A program made the translations under genes and the position numbers. Source: Verrucomicrobiales bacterium (GTDB lineage: Bacteria; Verrucomicrobiota; Verrucomicrobiia; Verrucomicrobiales; DEV007). Taken from it: 64,000 nt of DNA. The notes beneath the pieces are model-generated. The model was given only the letters and a program-made list of their open reading frames with translations. It did no database searches and was not told where the DNA came from. Below, in pieces: positions 14,859-51,383 of this stretch (the first letter of the stretch is position 1; each line of letters begins with the position of its first letter). Where the stretch lies: contig JARGNI010000019.1 of the NCBI GenBank assembly GCA_029213195.1, positions 1 through 64,000 on the forward strand, in the 5' to 3' direction.

Positions 14859-14963
14859 CAAAGTGAGACGGGGCAGGACGCATGGACGTTGGGGAAAAGC
14901 ATTGTCATCCTTCGGACCGCTATGTCAGAACATCAGGTCGACGGACTGAGTTCCTGCTTTCTC

Positions 14964-16421
14964 ATGAAAAAACTACCGCTTCTTTTCGCTGCTGTTCTTC
15001 TCTTGTCAGGATGGTTCCCTCCGGTCCATGCCGAGGAGCCGACACCTCCCAATTTCATCCTGATCTTTATCGACGACATGGGATGGGGCGATTTCTCCTG
15101 TTTTGGGAACGAAGATGCCGAGACCCCGAATATCGATCGTCTCGCCGAAGAGGGTATCGCGTTCGAGCATTTCTACGTGAACTCACCGATCTGTTCTCCC
15201 TCCCGGGTGGCCATTTCGACAGGGCAGTATCCCCAGCGGTGGAAGATTACCTCCTACCTGAATAATCGGAAAAGCAATGCGCAACGGGGCGTCGCCGACT
15301 GGTTGGATCCGGAGGCTCCGATGCTCGCCCGCATCCTCCAGGAGAACGGGTATGCGACCGGTCATTTCGGGAAGTGGCACATGGGTGGACAAAGGGATGT
15401 TCATGAAGCCCCGTTGATTACGGAGTATGGATTTGATGAATCGGTGACGAACTTTGAAGGTCTTGGAGCACGAGTCCTTCCCTTGAAATATTCTCCCGGA
15501 AACCCGAAGCCGGTCATGCACAATCTGGGGTCCGACACGCTCGGGCATGGTCCGGTGATCTGGCACGACCGCGCCTTTGTGACCGAGAAGTTTGTCGAGG
15601 CGGCGGTGGTGTTCGCGCGATTCGCGCGTTCCCAGGGCCGACCGTTCTACCTGAATCTCTGGCCCGATGATGTTCACACGCCGATGCATCCTACGCTCAA
15701 CCAGTGGGGCGACGGGGGAGATCGCCATCTCTACTGCCGTGTCCTCGAGGAAATGGATCGGCAACTCGCTCCACTCCTCAACCTGGTTCGAGAGGACCCC
15801 AAGCTGCGTGACAACACGCTCATCCTCATTTGTTCCGACAACGGTCCTGAAGTTGGGTTCGGATCGGCAGGCCCCCTTCGAGGGCACAAGGCGACCTTGT
15901 ATGAAGGAGGCATTCGTTCCTCCCTGGTAGCCTGGGCGCCGGGCATGATGCCCGAAGAAGCCCAGGGGACCCGAAACCAGGAGTCGGTATTTTCGGCCAT
16001 GGATCTCGTTCCCTCGCTTCTCGATATCGCAAAGGTGAAAGCGAGCGACACCGTTTCTTTCGATGGTGAGAATCTCGCTTCGGTGATCCTGGGAGAAGAG
16101 AGTCGTTCAAGAGCGGCCCCGCTGTTTTTTCGTCGCCCTCCGGATCGATCCAACTTCCGCCATTACAAGAACCTTCCTGATCTCGCAGTTCGTTCCGGGG
16201 AGTGGAAGCTCTACACGGACTACGAGGGAAAGAGTCCAGAACTCTATCACTTGCACAAGGACCCTTCCGAGAAGAGCTCGGTCGCTGATGGGAATCCGGA
16301 GGTGGTGAGTCGCCTGACAAAGGAACTGCTGGAGTGGAATTCGACCCTTCCCCAGGACCGGGGAGCTTTCCTCAAGGAACAGGGAGGCAAAGGGAAAGGA
16401 AAGAAATCCGGGAAGAAGTAG
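14964..16421 (+). CDS. Exported sulfatase (formylglycine type)
   Basis: Start at ATG 14964 (485 aa) gives a signal peptide (MKKLPLLFAAVLLLSGWFPPVHA). The sulfatase signature is complete: calcium-binding FIDDMGWGDFSCFG, then ICSPSRVAISTGQYP with the CxPSR motif whose Cys becomes formylglycine, GKWHMGG, and SDNGPEVGFGSAG. The C-terminal subdomain ends ELYHLHKDPSEKSSVADGNP. The tail is Lys/Gly-rich. It should hydrolyse sulfate esters on an external polysaccharide or glycan fragment. An anaerobic-type or FGE maturase is required but not present here. It lies 105 bases after the hydroxyproline genes and 27 bases before a hydrolase gene. Confidence 0.93.
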   Translation: MKKLPLLFAAVLLLSGWFPPVHAEEPTPPNFILIFIDDMGWGDFSCFGNEDAETPNIDRLAEEGIAFEHFYVNSPICSPSRVAISTGQYPQRWKITSYLNNRKSNAQRGVADWLDPEAPMLARILQENGYATGHFGKWHMGGQRDVHEAPLITEYGFDESVTNFEGLGARVLPLKYSPGNPKPVMHNLGSDTLGHGPVIWHDRAFVTEKFVEAAVVFARFARSQGRPFYLNLWPDDVHTPMHPTLNQWGDGGDRHLYCRVLEEMDRQLAPLLNLVREDPKLRDNTLILICSDNGPEVGFGSAGPLRGHKATLYEGGIRSSLVAWAPGMMPEEAQGTRNQESVFSAMDLVPSLLDIAKVKASDTVSFDGENLASVILGEESRSRAAPLFFRRPPDRSNFRHYKNLPDLAVRSGEWKLYTDYEGKSPELYHLHKDPSEKSSVADGNPEVVSRLTKELLEWNSTLPQDRGAFLKEQGGKGKGKKSGKK

Positions 16422-21915: not shown

Positions 21916-23205
21916 CTAGAGTTCCTTGATCGCCACTTTGCGGAACTGGATGGGGCTGCCGTGTCCGGCAAAGCCGAAAAACCCTTCGGTCAGCTCGAGT
22001 CCCGGGTGCTTCTTTTTCCCCATGAAGGTTTCCGGATCGATCTTCGAGAGATCGATATCGAGAATGACCGTTCCGTTCAACTCGACCCGGATCGTGGAGC
22101 CTTTCACGGTCACCTCCTGGTAGTTCCACTCGCCGAGAGGGCGAAGGTAACCGCGGTGGGCGGCGGCCATTCCGTAGGCGCTGCCATGATACTGTCGCTC
22201 GTCGAGCTTTGCGTATTTCTCCGAAGTGTTGTCGAGAACCTGGAGCTCGCACATTCCCACATAGGCGGTGTCACCGCTGCCTGGATAGCGAATCGCGAGA
22301 CCGTTGTTGCCTCCCGGAGTGAGCTTGAACTCGAGACGAGCGACGAAGTCGGAAAATTTCTTATCGAAGTAGACCGTGCCACCCTTCTTGTCCTTGCAGG
22401 CGATGGCGCCATCGACGACCTCGTAATTTTCGGTGGCGCCGGCCCATCCGCTGAGATCCTTGCCATTGAAGATGGTGGTGAATCCCGCATCGTCTCCCCG
22501 CAGGAGGGCGTTGGCTTCTTCCGCAGGGACTTCGCGGACGTTGATGTTCTTCCAGCGGATCTCGCCTCCATGCGTTTGCAGGTGGATAGGCCCGGTTGCG
22601 GGGAGAGGCTTGGCGCGATCCCAGAAATTGTCCATCGTCGCGGCATCGACGACGAGTTTGCTGTTCAGCCAGACCCAGGTGCGTGCACCGAGTTGGCGGA
22701 TCTGGAACTCGTTCCACTGGCCGAAAGGACGGTCCGCAAGCACGAGAGGATCCTTCCCGGGATTTCCCTTGCTGTTGTTCCAGAGCCCGCCCGATCCCAG
22801 ATCGGCACCGTGTTTGAAGGCCTTCTCATTCGTGTGATCCCAGATTTGCACCTGCGGAGTTCCGCGAAGGTAGATCCCGGAGTCGGCCTTGGGGACGGTC
22901 CTGTAGTCGACGGTGAACTCGATGTCGCCATAGTCGGAATCGGTCGTGGCGTAGGGGCCGTGGCCGTCGTTGACGAGGGCGCCGCCTTCCACGGACCAGT
23001 GCTTGGTGAAATCTTCCTGCTGCTTCTTGAGTGATTCTTCGCGACCTTCCTTCGCTTTGGCGGTCGTGTGGGGATTGTTCCCGTGCCAGCCTTCGAGGGT
23101 CTTCCCGTCGAAGAGAGGTTTCATCTTTTCCGTATCGATCGGTTCGGCAGCGAAGGCTGCTGTGGTGGCGAGGCAGGTGAGAGCAGCAATGAGGTTTTTC
23201 ATCAT
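21916..23205 (-). CDS. Double DUF1080 (3-keto-disaccharide hydrolase-like) protein
   Basis: The start at ATG 23205 (429 aa) gives the signal peptide MMKNLIAALTCLATTAAFA; the frame open to 23586 lies antisense to the DUF1501 gene and is not used. Two DUF1080 concanavalin-like domains follow in tandem. The first (about 25-235) starts KPLFDGKTLEGWHG and includes GIYLRGTPQVQIWD; the second (about 245-428) starts TTIFNGKDLSGWAG and has the matching LAIRYPGSGDTAYVGMCELQ. DUF1080 members are proposed to cleave 3-keto-glycosides. Two full domains in one chain suggest internal duplication. It is followed by a strong terminator. Confidence 0.9.
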   Translation of the reverse strand: MMKNLIAALTCLATTAAFAAEPIDTEKMKPLFDGKTLEGWHGNNPHTTAKAKEGREESLKKQQEDFTKHWSVEGGALVNDGHGPYATTDSDYGDIEFTVDYRTVPKADSGIYLRGTPQVQIWDHTNEKAFKHGADLGSGGLWNNSKGNPGKDPLVLADRPFGQWNEFQIRQLGARTWVWLNSKLVVDAATMDNFWDRAKPLPATGPIHLQTHGGEIRWKNINVREVPAEEANALLRGDDAGFTTIFNGKDLSGWAGATENYEVVDGAIACKDKKGGTVYFDKKFSDFVARLEFKLTPGGNNGLAIRYPGSGDTAYVGMCELQVLDNTSEKYAKLDERQYHGSAYGMAAAHRGYLRPLGEWNYQEVTVKGSTIRVELNGTVILDIDLSKIDPETFMGKKKHPGLELTEGFFGFAGHGSPIQFRKVAIKEL

Positions 23206-23294
23206 GATGGGAGCTTTGTATCGGTTCGAACAGGCTTTCGCAACCCCGATTCGGAGAATCCCTATGGCGGAATGGCGCAGCCGGAAAGGTGGGG

Positions 23295-24671
23295 CTACAT
23301 GAGTTCGCGAATCGGGATGGGAGATGTCATCGCATTGACGACATCGGCCGAAAGACCATCGACGAGACGAACCTCCCCGGGATCGAGAAGCGAGTGAAGA
23401 ATCGTGGAGGTCAGGTTTTCCATCTTCACCGGATTGGAGTCGGGTTCGCCTCCCTTCTTGTCGCTTTGCCCGATGACCTGGCCCGTCTTGAGCCCTCCGC
23501 CATAGAGCATCAGCGGGGCCAGCTTTCCCCAGTGGTCGCGTCCCCCGTTTTTGTTGATGACCGGGTTGCGTCCCATTTCGCCACAACAGACGAGCAGAAT
23601 TTTCTCACTGAGACCGCGGGCCTCGACGTCTTCGATAAAGGTGCTGACCGCATGATCGAAGGGAGCGGCCACATACTCCATCCCTTCCGTCATCGTGGCG
23701 TTGTTCTTGTCCGCATGCATGTCCCAGACGAAGTTTGTCGTGACGGTCACGAATCCGGCCCCTCGTTCACAAAGTCGTCTCGCGAGGAGAAGGAGCTTCC
23801 CGATGGATTGCCCGTGGTCTCGATAGCGCTGGTGATTGTTCCACTTCCGGCGAATGCGGTCGGGGTGCACGAGGGCGGCGGTGTCGTACCGGGCAACCGT
23901 TTTCGGATCTTCTTTCTTGAGATCGAAAGCGTCGGAGATTCCGCCGAGGATCATGTCGAAGGCCTGGGCCTGGAATTCCGTCATGTTCTCCGCTCCACCC
24001 GAATCGAGCTTTCGTTTTGCCTGGTCCAAGTCCTGGAGAAGAGCCCGTCGATCCTCGAAACGATCTCTCGCCATGCGAAGCGTCATGTCTTCCTGCATCG
24101 AGCCTCCCTCACCGACTTCGTAGGGAGCATAGGCGGCGCCGAGTGGGCCGGCGGAGGCAAAGTCGCCAAACTTCTTGATCATGGGCATCGCCTCCGGATC
24201 GACGGCCTTGGGATAGAGGGCGAGATTGCGAGGGAGGCCCGTGATCGGATCGTTGATCCCGGCAACGCGTGAATAGAGGGAACCGATATTTGCGCCCAGG
24301 GAATTGGTTCCGACGATGGGCTTGATATCATGCGCGCCCGTGCCGGTCGTGAAAGATCGGACGATGGCCAGCTTGTGGGCGAGACGAGCCAGCTTGGGAA
24401 AGGAACCACCGAAATGGACGCCCGGGAGGGAAGTCGACACGTCTCCCGTCGCCGAGCGAATCCCGGTGGGCTGATCCATCTTGGGGTCGAAGGTCTCCGT
24501 CTGCGAGGGGCCGCCATGCATGAAGAGAAAGACGACCGAGCGATCCTTGACCAACCCGGGATGAAGGGACTTTGCGGCAAGGAACTGGGGCAGGCTGAAA
24601 ACGCTACCTCCCAGCCCCATCGCTCCGAGACGAAGCATCGACCGTCTCGATCTGTCAGTGAACTCGATCAT
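23295..24671 (-). CDS. DUF1501 domain protein, Tat-exported
   Basis: The start at ATG 24671 (458 aa) puts the twin-arginine motif RSRRSMLRLG at residues 6-15, as usual; the upstream Met at 24719 would push it inward. DUF1501 motifs are VVFLFMHGGPSQTETFDPKMD, GAGFVTVTTNFVWDMHADKN, and LLVCCGEMGRNPVINKNGGR followed by DHWG. It is upstream of and co-directional with the double DUF1080 gene (89 bases), so the two may be transcribed together. The molecular function of DUF1501 is not established; it is an alkaline-phosphatase-superfamily fold. Confidence 0.88.
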   Translation of the reverse strand: MIEFTDRSRRSMLRLGAMGLGGSVFSLPQFLAAKSLHPGLVKDRSVVFLFMHGGPSQTETFDPKMDQPTGIRSATGDVSTSLPGVHFGGSFPKLARLAHKLAIVRSFTTGTGAHDIKPIVGTNSLGANIGSLYSRVAGINDPITGLPRNLALYPKAVDPEAMPMIKKFGDFASAGPLGAAYAPYEVGEGGSMQEDMTLRMARDRFEDRRALLQDLDQAKRKLDSGGAENMTEFQAQAFDMILGGISDAFDLKKEDPKTVARYDTAALVHPDRIRRKWNNHQRYRDHGQSIGKLLLLARRLCERGAGFVTVTTNFVWDMHADKNNATMTEGMEYVAAPFDHAVSTFIEDVEARGLSEKILLVCCGEMGRNPVINKNGGRDHWGKLAPLMLYGGGLKTGQVIGQSDKKGGEPDSNPVKMENLTSTILHSLLDPGEVRLVDGLSADVVNAMTSPIPIRELM

Positions 24672-24781
24672 GCTGCCGAGCAGTCTTTCGAAAAATTCCG
24701 CTTTGCACAAGGGCTTCATCGCGGAAGGGGAGTTCCTGCGCTTGCCTCTGGTTCAGAGACTTGCTTGGATGGGAACCTGAG

Positions 24782-25258
24782 ATGAAACGCATCACCACGA
24801 AGCTGGTTCGCGGCCACCAGGTTGCTTCGGGAGGAAACCGGGATCCGCGGTTTCCCGAGGGAACGATTCGGATGCAGATTCCGCATTTTGCGGAGAGGGG
24901 GCTGGACCTGAGTGACTGGTTTCCCGCGACGCTGAACCTCTCGCTGAGCCCCAGGGGATTCGAATTGCGAGAAGCCAACTTCACCTTTCGCGAGGTGGAT
25001 TGGCATCCGACGGAACCGGCCGAGGACTTTTCGTTCTTCGCCTGTGAGGTCCGCTCTCCCGAAACGGATGACTGGTTTGCCGGATGGGTCTACTACCCGC
25101 ACCCCGAGACCAAGCCGGAACATTTCCAGCCGGACGACTTGCTCGAGGTGATGGTCGAAAGAAAGCTCCCGGGACTCGCCTACGGGGATCCCGTCGAGCT
25201 TCGCGCCGATCCTCATCGCATCGTCTGGACCGAGCCCGAGGAGACGCAACAGGGTTAG
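24782..25258 (+). CDS. Conserved hypothetical, possibly CTP-dependent riboflavin kinase-like fold
   Basis: 158 aa from ATG 24782 (an alternative TTG at 24761 adds 7). No signal peptide. Visible conserved-looking blocks are VRGHQVASGG near the start, WFPATLNLSLSP in the middle, EDFSFFACEV and WVYYPHPETKPEHF, then GLAYGDPVEL. The pattern of a glycine-rich first strand followed by PxTLNxxL recalls archaeal CTP-dependent riboflavin kinases, but the bacterial relatives I recall are annotated only as hypothetical. It is divergent from the DUF1501 gene. I would not assign an enzymatic function from this alone. Confidence 0.6.
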   Translation: MKRITTKLVRGHQVASGGNRDPRFPEGTIRMQIPHFAERGLDLSDWFPATLNLSLSPRGFELREANFTFREVDWHPTEPAEDFSFFACEVRSPETDDWFAGWVYYPHPETKPEHFQPDDLLEVMVERKLPGLAYGDPVELRADPHRIVWTEPEETQQG

Positions 25259-25284
25259 ATGAGGGAGCCAACCCTGTTCCCTGG

Positions 25285-25521
25285 TCACCGTTTGCGTGCT
25301 TCGTCGGCCAGGGGCTGAAGGCGTGAAGCGACTTCCGGATGCCTGGCAATCCGATTCGTCGACTCTCCGATGTCGTCGACGAGGTGATACCGTTCCGCTT
25401 CTCGGCTTGGGCGAGCCCCAATTGCGAGAAGGGTAAAAGATCCAGGCAGGGAGGCTTCATGGAGGGTGCCGTAGAGGGCGAGAAAGAAAATGAGAAGGAC
25501 GAAATGGGGTGGGAAAACGGG
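25285..25521 (-). pseudogene. Decayed 3' end of a sulfatase gene
   Basis: This 313-base gap between forward genes contains, on the minus strand, a 78-codon open stretch with no start codon, bounded by a TGA at 25522-25524. Its last 35 codons (25392-25285) read like an arylsulfatase C-terminus: RYHLVDDIGESTN, then ARHPEVASRLQPLADEARK and a stop. That matches the family pattern LYDLxxDxGExxNLAxxHPExVxxLxxLxxEAR. The part upstream (LLIFFLALYGTLHEA and onward) is not recognisable. No sulfatase body exists beside it, because the next gene lies on the opposite strand. It is best read as the remnant left by deletion of a sulfatase gene. Confidence 0.6.
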
Positions 25522-25570
25522 TCATCTCCTGCTGGACGAGACAGATGGGATGAGGAAAGAGTTTCGGATC

Positions 25571-25849
25571 ATGACCTCTGATCCCTTCCACTGTCCTGAA
25601 TGTGGGGCCGATGTTTCTCCCAATGCGACGGGGTGTCGCTGTGGAGCGAGGAAAGAGAATGGCAGATGGTTGACCTCGGAAACTTATGATGGAGTCGATC
25701 TGCCGGATGACGATGATTTCGACTACCAGGATTTCATCGCTTGCGAGTTCGGGGAAGGGACGAAAAAGCGAAGCTTTCGCGATTTCTTCTGGTGGCTGGT
25801 TGCCTTGATCACCCTGATTGCTTTTATCCTGATCTCGATCGGGTGGTGA
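25571..25849 (+). CDS. Small zinc-ribbon protein with C-terminal membrane anchor
   Basis: 92 aa from ATG 25571 (MTSDPFHCPECGADVSPNATGC); the frame is open back to 25490, but those residues carry no recognisable signal. The N-terminus has a CxxC pair and a CxC pair (CPEC, GCRCGA), suiting a short zinc ribbon. A very acidic stretch (LPDDDDFDYQD) and a basic patch follow, then one C-terminal transmembrane helix (FFWWLVALITLIAFILISIGW). Tail-anchored topology with the ribbon in the cytoplasm is likely. No family recognised; role unknown. Confidence 0.6.
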   Translation: MTSDPFHCPECGADVSPNATGCRCGARKENGRWLTSETYDGVDLPDDDDFDYQDFIACEFGEGTKKRSFRDFFWWLVALITLIAFILISIGW

Positions 25850-26041
25850 GGAAGAAGGTATCTGGAGACAGGGAGGGAACTGCCAGTCAGTCATGGTCGA
25901 TCACAGGCCTCCGCGACGGTTTCCAAAAGAGGCCGCATGAAGGGCAATCGGTGCGTAGAACGAAAATCGGATTTTTCGCTAACCTCATAACAGAAAGGGG
26001 ATCCCGAATGAGTGGGACCCTGAATCGAATTGAGGTTTTGC

Positions 26042-27418
26042 ATGAACGAGCGTTTTACTGAGTCCCGCACTTTGGAGGGTCTGTCACCGGATCGAACCCT
26101 GATGGCGGAGCCCGGCTCCGGCGAATCGTGTGCGGTGGCGAGCGAAGACTGCCAGCCCGGCGAATCGATGAAGTCGGTCCCTGGTGCTGGGGTCCTCCAG
26201 GCTGGCTCCTTTCTGGCCGGGCAGCACCACACGGTGATCGGATATGGGAACATCAAGCGGCTCGCCATCATGGTGACCCCGGAGTGTGGGGGGAATGTGC
26301 GTGACCAGGCTTGGGAGACCGTCTCGATGATGCGGGCGATTCTGCGACTGCAGGATGAGCCCATGGCATTGACGATGCAGACGGTCTTCGTCGCCGAGGC
26401 AAGCGATGTTCCCGCGATTCGAAAATTGTTCGAAGCGTATTTTGATGAGGGAATGCCGCTGACGCTTTTTGTCGTGCAACCCCCGTGCGACGGAGCGGCA
26501 CTGGCGGTCGAGGCCTGGGCGATTTCCACCAGGAACGCATCGGTCGGGTATCATGGGCCTCATCTCGTCACGATCGAGCACGACGACCTTCGCTGGGTCT
26601 ATGCCTCTGCCGGACAGATCCATCAACCCGGTCGGTCGGCCTACGAGCAGTCGCAGGAAGCCTTTGATCGTCTCGGAAGCACGATGCGTTCGGTGGGGGT
26701 TCCGTTTCGGGACGTGGTTCGGATCTGGCTCTACCAGGGGGGAATCACGGAGATCGAGGAGGAGACGGAAAGATATCGAGAATTGAATCGAGCTCGGACC
26801 GACTTTTTCGACGGCGTCGATTTTTCCAGCTGCCCCCTTGTGAAGCAGCAGCAGGGAAAGGGGATCTTTCCAGCGAGCACCGGGATTGGAACGAGAGAAC
26901 ATGGTCTCGTTGTCACCGCACTCTCCGTTCAGACCGAGAGGGAGGACGTGGAGATTCTTTCCCTCGAAAACCCTCAGCAGATGTCGGCCTTTGACTATCC
27001 CAAAGAGTATTCGGCAAAGAGTCCGAAGTTCTCCCGTGCGATGGCGATTCGTATCGGGGATCACCTCACGACCTGGGTTTCGGGGACGGCCAGTATCGTC
27101 AATGCCGAGACGGTCCACCCCGGAGATGTCGTCAAGCAGACCCACCAGACCCTCGACAATATCGAGAACCTGATTGCGACGGAGAATTTCTCTCGCCTGG
27201 GTTGGGAAGGAGTTGGAGCCAAGCTGGAGGAGTTGGCGAAGATCCGGGTCTATGTGCGGCGTCCCGAGGACTATGAGAAATGTCGGGCGGTTTGCGAGGA
27301 GCGACTGGGGCTCGTTCCCTCCGTCTATGCGATTGCCGATGTCTGCCGGCCGGATCTCCTCGTCGAGATCGAAGGCGTGACTTTCTCGCAGGTGAAGAAG
27401 TCAGGGGGTGGGTCATGA
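26042..27418 (+). CDS. RidA/YjgF-fold protein, chorismatase-like architecture
   Basis: 458 aa from ATG 26042 (a TTG at 26030 is also in frame). The C-terminal third has the YjgF/RidA-type core with NPQQMSAFDYP, SPKFSRAMAI, WVSGTASIVNAETVHPGD and LDNIENLI. That arrangement recalls FkbO/Hyg5-type chorismatases and related pteridine-dependent-dioxygenase-like proteins. A second Rid-like segment lies in the middle (about 140-250: VYASAGQIHQPGRSAYEQ, VVRIWLYQGG). It is the first gene of an operon: its stop overlaps the ATG of the DUF1549 gene (ATGA at 27415). A link between a Rid-fold enzyme and the DUF1549/DUF1501 pair is unusual. Substrate unknown. Confidence 0.72.
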   Translation: MNERFTESRTLEGLSPDRTLMAEPGSGESCAVASEDCQPGESMKSVPGAGVLQAGSFLAGQHHTVIGYGNIKRLAIMVTPECGGNVRDQAWETVSMMRAILRLQDEPMALTMQTVFVAEASDVPAIRKLFEAYFDEGMPLTLFVVQPPCDGAALAVEAWAISTRNASVGYHGPHLVTIEHDDLRWVYASAGQIHQPGRSAYEQSQEAFDRLGSTMRSVGVPFRDVVRIWLYQGGITEIEEETERYRELNRARTDFFDGVDFSSCPLVKQQQGKGIFPASTGIGTREHGLVVTALSVQTEREDVEILSLENPQQMSAFDYPKEYSAKSPKFSRAMAIRIGDHLTTWVSGTASIVNAETVHPGDVVKQTHQTLDNIENLIATENFSRLGWEGVGAKLEELAKIRVYVRRPEDYEKCRAVCEERLGLVPSVYAIADVCRPDLLVEIEGVTFSQVKKSGGGS

Positions 27419-29007
27419 GATGGGCCGGATTCCTTTCCATCCTCGGTCTGGCCTGCGGCATCTTCTCGAGTCGCGCCGAGGATGCCATCTTTGATGGGGA
27501 AAAACTGGAGTGGAATCGGGGCACCGCGGCGACGGCCAGCGAACGGATCGACCAGTTGGTCTTCGGGCAGTTGGAGACGATGGGGATCGAGCCGGCGAAT
27601 CTCTCCAGCGACGAGGCCTTTCTGCGACGAGTTTACCTCGTCACGATCGGGACGCTGCCGCGAGAGGATGAGGTTCGCGATTTTCTTTCCACTGAAGATG
27701 AGGTGAAGCGATTGCTCGTCATCGAGCATCTTCTCGATCGTCCGGAGTTTGCCGACTACTGGTCGATGAAGTGGGGCGATCTTCTCCGGGTAAAAGCGGA
27801 GTTTCCCATCAAGCTGTGGCCCAATGCGGTTCAGGCGTACCACCACTGGATTCACAAGAGCATTCGGGAGAACAAGCCCTACCACGAGTTTGTCCGCGAC
27901 TTGCTGAACGGAAGCGGAAGCAACTTCCGGGTCGGGGAGGTCAATTTTTATCGAGCGATGCAGGACCGGACTCCTCAAGGAATCGCTTCGACAGTGGCCT
28001 TGACCTTCATGGGCGAGCGCACCGAGCACTGGCCCGAGAAGAAGCTGGATGCGATGGCGGGTTTTTTCTCCCATGTCGCATTCAAGCCGACCCAGGAGTG
28101 GAAGGAGGAGATCGTCTACTTCGACCCGACCATGGACGAAGAGAAGTTTTACGCGGGAGCGATCTTTCCGGATGGCACTCCTGCAGAGGTGGATCCGTTC
28201 GCGAGAGACCCGCGGGCCCTCTTTGCCGACTGGCTGATCCGTCCGGAGAATCCCTACTTCTCCCGCACGATTGCAAACCGGACCTGGTCCTGGCTCATGG
28301 GGCGGGGAATCGTCCACGAGCCCGACGACTTTGGTCCTCACAACTCTCCTTCGAATCCGGAACTGCTCGCCTTTCTCGAAGAAGAGTTCAACTCGTCTCG
28401 CTGCGACATGAAGCATCTTTTCCGGGTCATTCTCGGGTCGAAGGTCTTCCAGTTGTCCTGTATCCCGAAGGAGAATTCCCCGGAGGCCGTGGCTCACTTT
28501 GCCCACTACCCCTTGAGAAGAATGGAGGCCGAGGTTCTCATCGATGCCTTGAATGAGATTACGGGGACGAAAGAAGAATACAGCAGCCCGATTCCCGAGC
28601 CGTTTACCTTTGTTCCCGATGACATTCGTGCGATCGCCCTCGCCGATGGCAGCATCACGAGTTCCTTTCTCGAACTCTATGGCCGTCCTCCGCGGGACAC
28701 GGGAAAGGAAAGCGAGCGGAGCCGAAATATCAATCCGCAGCAGCGCCTTCACTTGCTGAACTCGAGTCACATCCTCAAGAAAGTGAAGTCCTGCCCACTC
28801 GTGGTCTGGGGTGGGGGAGTTTGCCTCGAGGAACAGCCCGAGATGATCGAGCGGATCTATCTTCATGTCTTGTCCCGATTGCCCACCGAGGATGAGAAAT
28901 TGGTTTTGAGTGAATACTCCGAAGCCAGTGGCGCGACGAGCCGATCCCTCGCGGCCGATCTCGTGTGGGCGCTGATCAATCAGCCCGAATTCTATTTCAT
29001 TCACTGA
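27415..29007 (+). CDS. DUF1549/DUF1553 exported protein
   Basis: 530 aa from ATG 27415, overlapping the previous stop by four bases (translational coupling). A signal peptide is present (MRWAGFLSILGLACGIFSSRAE). The DUF1549 region (about 40-250) has FLRRVYLVTIGTLPREDEV, LLDRPEFADYWSMKWGDLLR and YHEFVRDLLNGSGSNF. The DUF1553 region (about 270-520) has RTIANRTWSWLMGRGIVHEP, ELLAFLEEEF, LRRMEAEVLIDALNEITG and a C-terminal ALINQPEFYFIH. There is no CxxCH heme motif, so this is the cytochrome-free form. It is followed 35 bases later by the DUF1501 gene that normally accompanies it. Confidence 0.92.
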   Translation: MRWAGFLSILGLACGIFSSRAEDAIFDGEKLEWNRGTAATASERIDQLVFGQLETMGIEPANLSSDEAFLRRVYLVTIGTLPREDEVRDFLSTEDEVKRLLVIEHLLDRPEFADYWSMKWGDLLRVKAEFPIKLWPNAVQAYHHWIHKSIRENKPYHEFVRDLLNGSGSNFRVGEVNFYRAMQDRTPQGIASTVALTFMGERTEHWPEKKLDAMAGFFSHVAFKPTQEWKEEIVYFDPTMDEEKFYAGAIFPDGTPAEVDPFARDPRALFADWLIRPENPYFSRTIANRTWSWLMGRGIVHEPDDFGPHNSPSNPELLAFLEEEFNSSRCDMKHLFRVILGSKVFQLSCIPKENSPEAVAHFAHYPLRRMEAEVLIDALNEITGTKEEYSSPIPEPFTFVPDDIRAIALADGSITSSFLELYGRPPRDTGKESERSRNINPQQRLHLLNSSHILKKVKSCPLVVWGGGVCLEEQPEMIERIYLHVLSRLPTEDEKLVLSEYSEASGATSRSLAADLVWALINQPEFYFIH

Positions 29008-51261: not shown

Positions 51262-51383
51262 GGAGAGCGCTTCAACTGGCTCAGGGTAGGGGCTACAAGG
51301 AGCCGAGGCGAAGCGATTTTTCTGCAGACGTTTTCGAACACAACAGGGTTGAGTCCTCGACGTTACCCTGTTTGGTGTCGGAA

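Follow-up and report, generated by a model that had tools for sequence, protein, structure and literature searches.

The relic considered here lies on the minus strand of the window, by which is meant the whole stretch of 64,000 nucleotides that was analysed, and occupies 237 nt of a 315-nt gap between the stop of one plus-strand gene and the start of another. From 25521 down to 25285 the minus strand is open for 78 codons, which translate as PVFPPHFVLLIFFLALYGTLHEASLPGSFTLLAIGARPSREAERYHLVDDIGESTNRIARHPEVASRLQPLADEARKR, and is then closed by a TGA stop codon (25285..25287, minus strand). The exact string containing the motifs quoted in the original prediction is RIARHPEVASRLQ. Nowhere across 25521..25285 is there an in-frame ATG, GTG or TTG, so that the stretch does not constitute a complete sulfatase reading frame with a start codon; in-frame ATT, ATC and CTG codons are present. 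A Pfam search with the fragment gave zero matches at E up to 1. The gene that converges with the relic (24764..25258, plus strand) occurs in 10 of the 33 genomes of the genus, own genome included, and no Pfam family matched its protein at E up to 1. Relatives of this protein are found in Verrucomicrobiota, in many cyanobacteria and in some other phyla, and on sequence comparison it belongs to a conserved family without assigned function. The divergent neighbour (25574..25849, plus strand; 22 of the 33 genus genomes, own included) encodes a small protein which, on a reading of its sequence, has a zinc-ribbon-like start and a hydrophobic end, all of its Pfam matches falling under the curated cut-off. 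Further along the same strand, at 26042-27418, Pfam indicates a chorismatase-like N-terminal part (FkbO/Hyg5-like) followed by an L-PSP/RidA part. A 31-bp palindrome (25248..25278) is also located between the relic's stop and the convergent gene, which it overlaps by 11 nt, taking in that gene's last codons and stop.

The end of the relic is a sulfatase C-terminal tail, YHLVDDIGESTNRIARHPEVASRLQPLADEARKR, followed by the stop. The core of this tail (AERYHLVDDIGESTN...LADEARKR; 25288..25395, minus strand) aligns with match positions 2-37 of the 40 in a profile that includes the relic, and a profile of whole sulfatases matched 25291..25410 on the same strand over its positions 417-455 of 481, with 33.0 bits. 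In a six-frame search of the window with a profile built from 56 sulfatase tails and excluding the relic, the relic's tail scored 57.4 bits (E 8.6e-17), a figure that is tilted upward, since those 56 sequences had been retrieved by searching with the relic and the profile is biased towards it. Of 57,580 open segments (at least 20 residues, six frames) from 30 Markov-shuffled windows, the highest-scoring reached only 9.1 bits. The intact sulfatase of the window, which is not in the 56-tail profile, scored 44.5 bits and the third-best segment of the window 3.9 bits; the margin of the relic's score over the controls is large and places it far above chance.

A search of the relic's last 48 residues against its own genome recovered, besides the query itself, 34 further places at E up to 1, and 30 of these start no more than 600 nt downstream of a same-strand PF00884 match (of which the genome has at least 150, with 150 of 275 candidates scored). 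Homology of the relic to genes still intact in its own genome is thereby established. As for the other four, C105:15533 reads as something else, and C34:93252, C71:20321 and C104:132702 have no PF00884 domain upstream among the matches listed. Inspected by eye, 28 of the 29 places whose loci were read show the tail pattern, LY-L--D-GE--N----HPE, exactly or nearly so. Across the genus, 21 of the 33 genomes (own included) have a match to the tail with E no higher than 0.001. Outside the relic, the best of these is 56% identical over 36 residues and lies within a 523-codon frame in which Pfam finds Sulfatase and Sulfatase_C. The whole layout is present in the intact relative L083. Among solved structures, a profile of 38 tails (relic included) found 66 distinct chains at E up to 1, of which 60 were listed; each of the 14 top-ranked is a sulfatase in which the match falls close to the C-terminus (e.g. 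6s20, at residues 477-511 of 513), 9fo1 is also among the sulfatases matched, and from 9.6e-7 onward unrelated chains such as protein A turn up. The relic thus qualifies as the C-terminal tail of a family S1 sulfatase.

The remainder of such a gene is missing. When 22000-29000 was scanned in all six frames with a profile built from 39 sulfatases (481 positions), no sulfatase piece other than the tail of the relic came up at E up to 1, which rules out a body hidden by frameshifts; with positions 417-455 alone found in this interval, the relic has no catalytic Sulfatase domain and is consequently incapable of sulfatase action. A body could not be accommodated in any case, as the open stretch and the start of the divergent neighbour are just 52 nt apart (25522-25573). 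What lies here is therefore a sulfatase tail without its body, and the absence of essential parts, the body and the start codon, is that of a sulfatase pseudogene. The original prediction, of a start-less minus-strand stretch with a sulfatase-like tail and a stop and with the rest of the gene absent, is upheld by the translation, by the tail profile, in which the last 35 codons do have a significant sulfatase match (57.4 bits, E 8.6e-17), and by the six-frame scan of 22000-29000, which gave the tail only.

An important consideration is what stood at this site before. Loci of relatives of the two flanking genes, 21 for the small gene and nine for the convergent gene, were each read to 1.5 kb or to the contig end, and in these 30 loci relatives of the two genes never occur together. 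None of the 30, within the same reading distance, has a sulfatase in the place of the relic. Three of them (L058, L072 and L081) do contain sulfatase sequence, elsewhere than in that place. In L081 the sulfatase is directly upstream of the small gene on the same strand; in L072 it is on the opposite strand, with its start some 800 nt upstream of that gene, and was not accepted as a counterpart since a 239-codon plus-strand frame intervenes and the contig end cuts the sulfatase. A scan of named genomes with the convergent gene yielded 72 loci, a set from which very near genomes may be left out; the nearest locus listed is 58% identical, and this and the next three are from Verrucomicrobiales draft genomes, which makes it most likely that the organism of the window belongs to that order. 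None of the named genomes listed is a sister close enough to show the state before the relic arose, and with no intact sulfatase at the site in relatives and the neighbour order not kept, that state is unseen. Thus the comparison that the original prediction proposed, in which sister genomes would carry an intact sulfatase here, failed to find one in any of the 30 relative loci, with the two neighbours never together, and synteny gives no proof of the sulfatase loss it had claimed. That a full sulfatase once stood at the site and was lost is nevertheless the likeliest reading of the sequence.

The own genome, with its PF00884 matches, offers a plentiful stock of possible parents. The best other match of the tail in the assembly is only 46% identical, over 35 residues, so that recent partial copying from any gene retained in the assembly was rejected as the relic's origin. 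An intact sulfatase (PF00884) lies about 9 kb away from the relic, at about 14859-16418 on the plus strand. This gene, which is absent from the 34 tail-like places, was ruled out as a recent parent. The relic is not the only broken sulfatase gene in this genome. At E up to 0.001 the tail profile (relic included) gave at least 130 matches, with 150 of 269 candidates scored, and among those listed there were four open frames of less than 300 codons, namely the relic, C86:21559, C58:2574 and C21:74337. The broken gene in G000:C86 (L183 2861-3155) keeps profile positions 127-156 and 392-451, that in G000:C21 (L185 2272-3083) keeps 21-88 and 302-460, and that in G000:C58 (L184 2475-2978) keeps 322-458 only; two of these three further relics, C86 and C21, therefore retain a piece of the front half together with one from the end, the middle having been lost. 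A scan of 11 genus genomes, own included, with the same relic-inclusive profile at E up to 1e-10 produced 223 matches, and the approximately 150 of these that were listed include eight open frames of less than 325 codons in relatives. Four run off contig ends (L192, L193, G001:C320 (L086) and G001:C444 (L107)), and four are broken inside a contig (L189, L190, L191 and L194, from genomes G023 and G011), L189 consisting of several sulfatase pieces on both strands; some of the latter breaks could be sequencing errors in draft genomes. Taken together, the three further broken genes in this genome and the four in relatives lend indirect support to the turnover of sulfatase genes.

The relic is best read as a pseudogene, probably left by a large deletion. 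More specifically, we hold with considerable confidence that it is a decayed family S1 sulfatase gene (Pfam Sulfatase) whose catalytic body was lost by deletion, so that just the final 35 to 48 codons and the stop survive, perhaps fused to an eroded signal-peptide head. In a sulfatase family as large as this, single genes are likely to be dispensable, and a deletion within a gene standing at the site, in place, would have removed the catalytic body. The tail that remained would have persisted because nothing selects against it. Lacking both a usual start codon and the catalytic part, the relic most likely yields no protein and has no activity, and it is presumably unexpressed.

An alternative is that a loose fragment of a sulfatase was imported by recombination and that the full gene was never at the site. 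The separation of the two neighbours in the relative loci, from which rearrangement seems to be common, is in keeping with such an origin, as is the fact that the tail alone is certain, but the relic extends to a stop codon at the position of a gene end, tightly convergent with the stop of the other gene, and the front and end pieces kept in the C86 and C21 relics indicate deletion inside genes, so that an imported fragment is unlikely. A considerably smaller probability attaches to an error of the draft assembly that fused the tail of one sulfatase onto another locus. Large gene families are prone to misjoins and this is a draft genome in 115 contigs; however, no second copy of the tail was found in the assembly, where the best other match has 46% identity, and the relic is situated about 25 kb inside a 105-kb contig.

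The part of the open stretch ahead of the tail is more difficult to interpret. A possible head (25432..25521, minus strand) is suggested by a hydrophobic run resembling the core of a signal peptide, in the same frame and with no start codon. Codon usage over the 30 codons in question (25521-25432) gives +10.5 bits in the frame of the relic, but this evidence is weakened by the fact that over the tail itself, at 25330-25419, codon usage does not mark out the relic's frame (5.0 bits there versus 5.2 in another frame). An equally hydrophobic 12-mer arose in 43 of 2000 local shuffles of the head region, and the strand is C/T-rich across the head, a composition that favours hydrophobic runs there anyway. 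No DNA match of the head was found in the relative loci compared, and the idea that the hydrophobic part is a conserved leader of the zinc-ribbon-like small gene was likewise unsupported, with no DNA match in those loci. There is thus a hint, and only a hint, that the hydrophobic stretch is a leftover signal peptide, in which case head and tail would have been joined directly in the relic. A broader proposal is that sulfatase genes in the genus repeatedly lose the middle and keep the secretion head and the conserved tail, so that decay of this very large family gives short head-to-tail fusions, some of which could turn into new secreted proteins, with the relic an in-frame example; this we regard as speculative and very improbable. 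Least credible of all is a small expressed peptide, perhaps secreted, that reuses the sulfatase tail. The 78-codon open frame and the in-frame hydrophobic stretch speak for it, but there is no in-frame ATG, GTG or TTG, and the shortest relative frames listed, of 82 codons (G013:C175, where the match covers bases 53-145 and the contig end perhaps cuts the frame) and 113 codons (in L189, a broken gene in several pieces, of which this is one), are neither of them shown to be the same short form.

The palindrome beside the relic belongs to a repeated family. Its arms are the 9-bp sequences AACAGGGTT and AACCCTGTT, spaced by 13 bp, and a second copy lies in the window at 51342-51372. The own genome contains 13 places with exact arms and 87 at up to two mismatches, against none for a control pattern read backward. 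Of 52 genomes searched, exact copies are present in 24 of the 33 that belong to the genus of the window and in none of the 19 from other genera. The context was assessed, with crude gene calls, for 42 of the 45 listed copies with up to one mismatch (of the 87). Outside predicted genes there were 35 copies and inside them seven; the 35 intergenic copies are distributed over 17 tandem, nine divergent and nine convergent gaps, approximately as expected of random placement between genes. The arms are near-invariant, though the pattern search itself selects for such arms. At inner position 13 a T is present in 72 of 84 half-sites, whereas just 16 or 17 of the 42 copies have Watson-Crick pairs at inner positions 10 to 12; a weaker outer symmetry (GA---C) widens the site. 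A terminator reading was dropped, as no T-run follows and the fold of 25230-25290 is no better than that of shuffles (z -0.64), and it is also disfavoured by the infrequent pairing of inner positions 10 to 12 and the lack of a preferred gene orientation. At gathering level Rfam found nothing in the window. Rather than an RNA hairpin, the palindrome would seem to be a repetitive extragenic palindrome or a protein-binding DNA site, perhaps for a chromosome-wide protein. PMC3733652 describes other families of repetitive palindromes, with GTAG and CGTC tags, that are rich in one species of Verrucomicrobia and prefer tandem and convergent gaps, whereas the palindrome described here shows no such preference. 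In the literature searched, the listed matches to both arm sequences all concern unrelated subjects, to judge by title. The family may be worth more than the relic itself and is perhaps a new family of repetitive palindromes.

The relic resembles family S1 sulfatases (PF00884 with C-terminal PF14707 / PF16347) in that its last approximately 35 residues match their tail, and differs from them in that no catalytic domain was found and that it has neither a usual start codon nor a Pfam match of its own. It also resembles those bacterial pseudogenes that have arisen by internal deletion, being a recognisable family end with body and start missing (compare C86 and C21), although less remains of it than of those two relics and its head is no more than possible. 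Genomes rich in sulfatases are known from this superphylum: one from Kiritimatiellales is reported to contain 521 sulfatase genes, and the paper concerned alludes to potentially non-functional duplicated genes (PMC6388578). Within the collection and wording searched, a literature search for truncated, degenerate or pseudogene sulfatases returned, by title, solely human mucopolysaccharidosis. A pseudogene in so large a sulfatase family is an expected and ordinary leftover of gene decay, to be filed as a relic of the family and not as a sulfatase. By itself the relic alters no existing knowledge. It is one documented gene death in a family that has considerably more than a hundred members in this genome, and counts of such relics would help to gauge the pace at which the sulfatase repertoire changes in Verrucomicrobiota.
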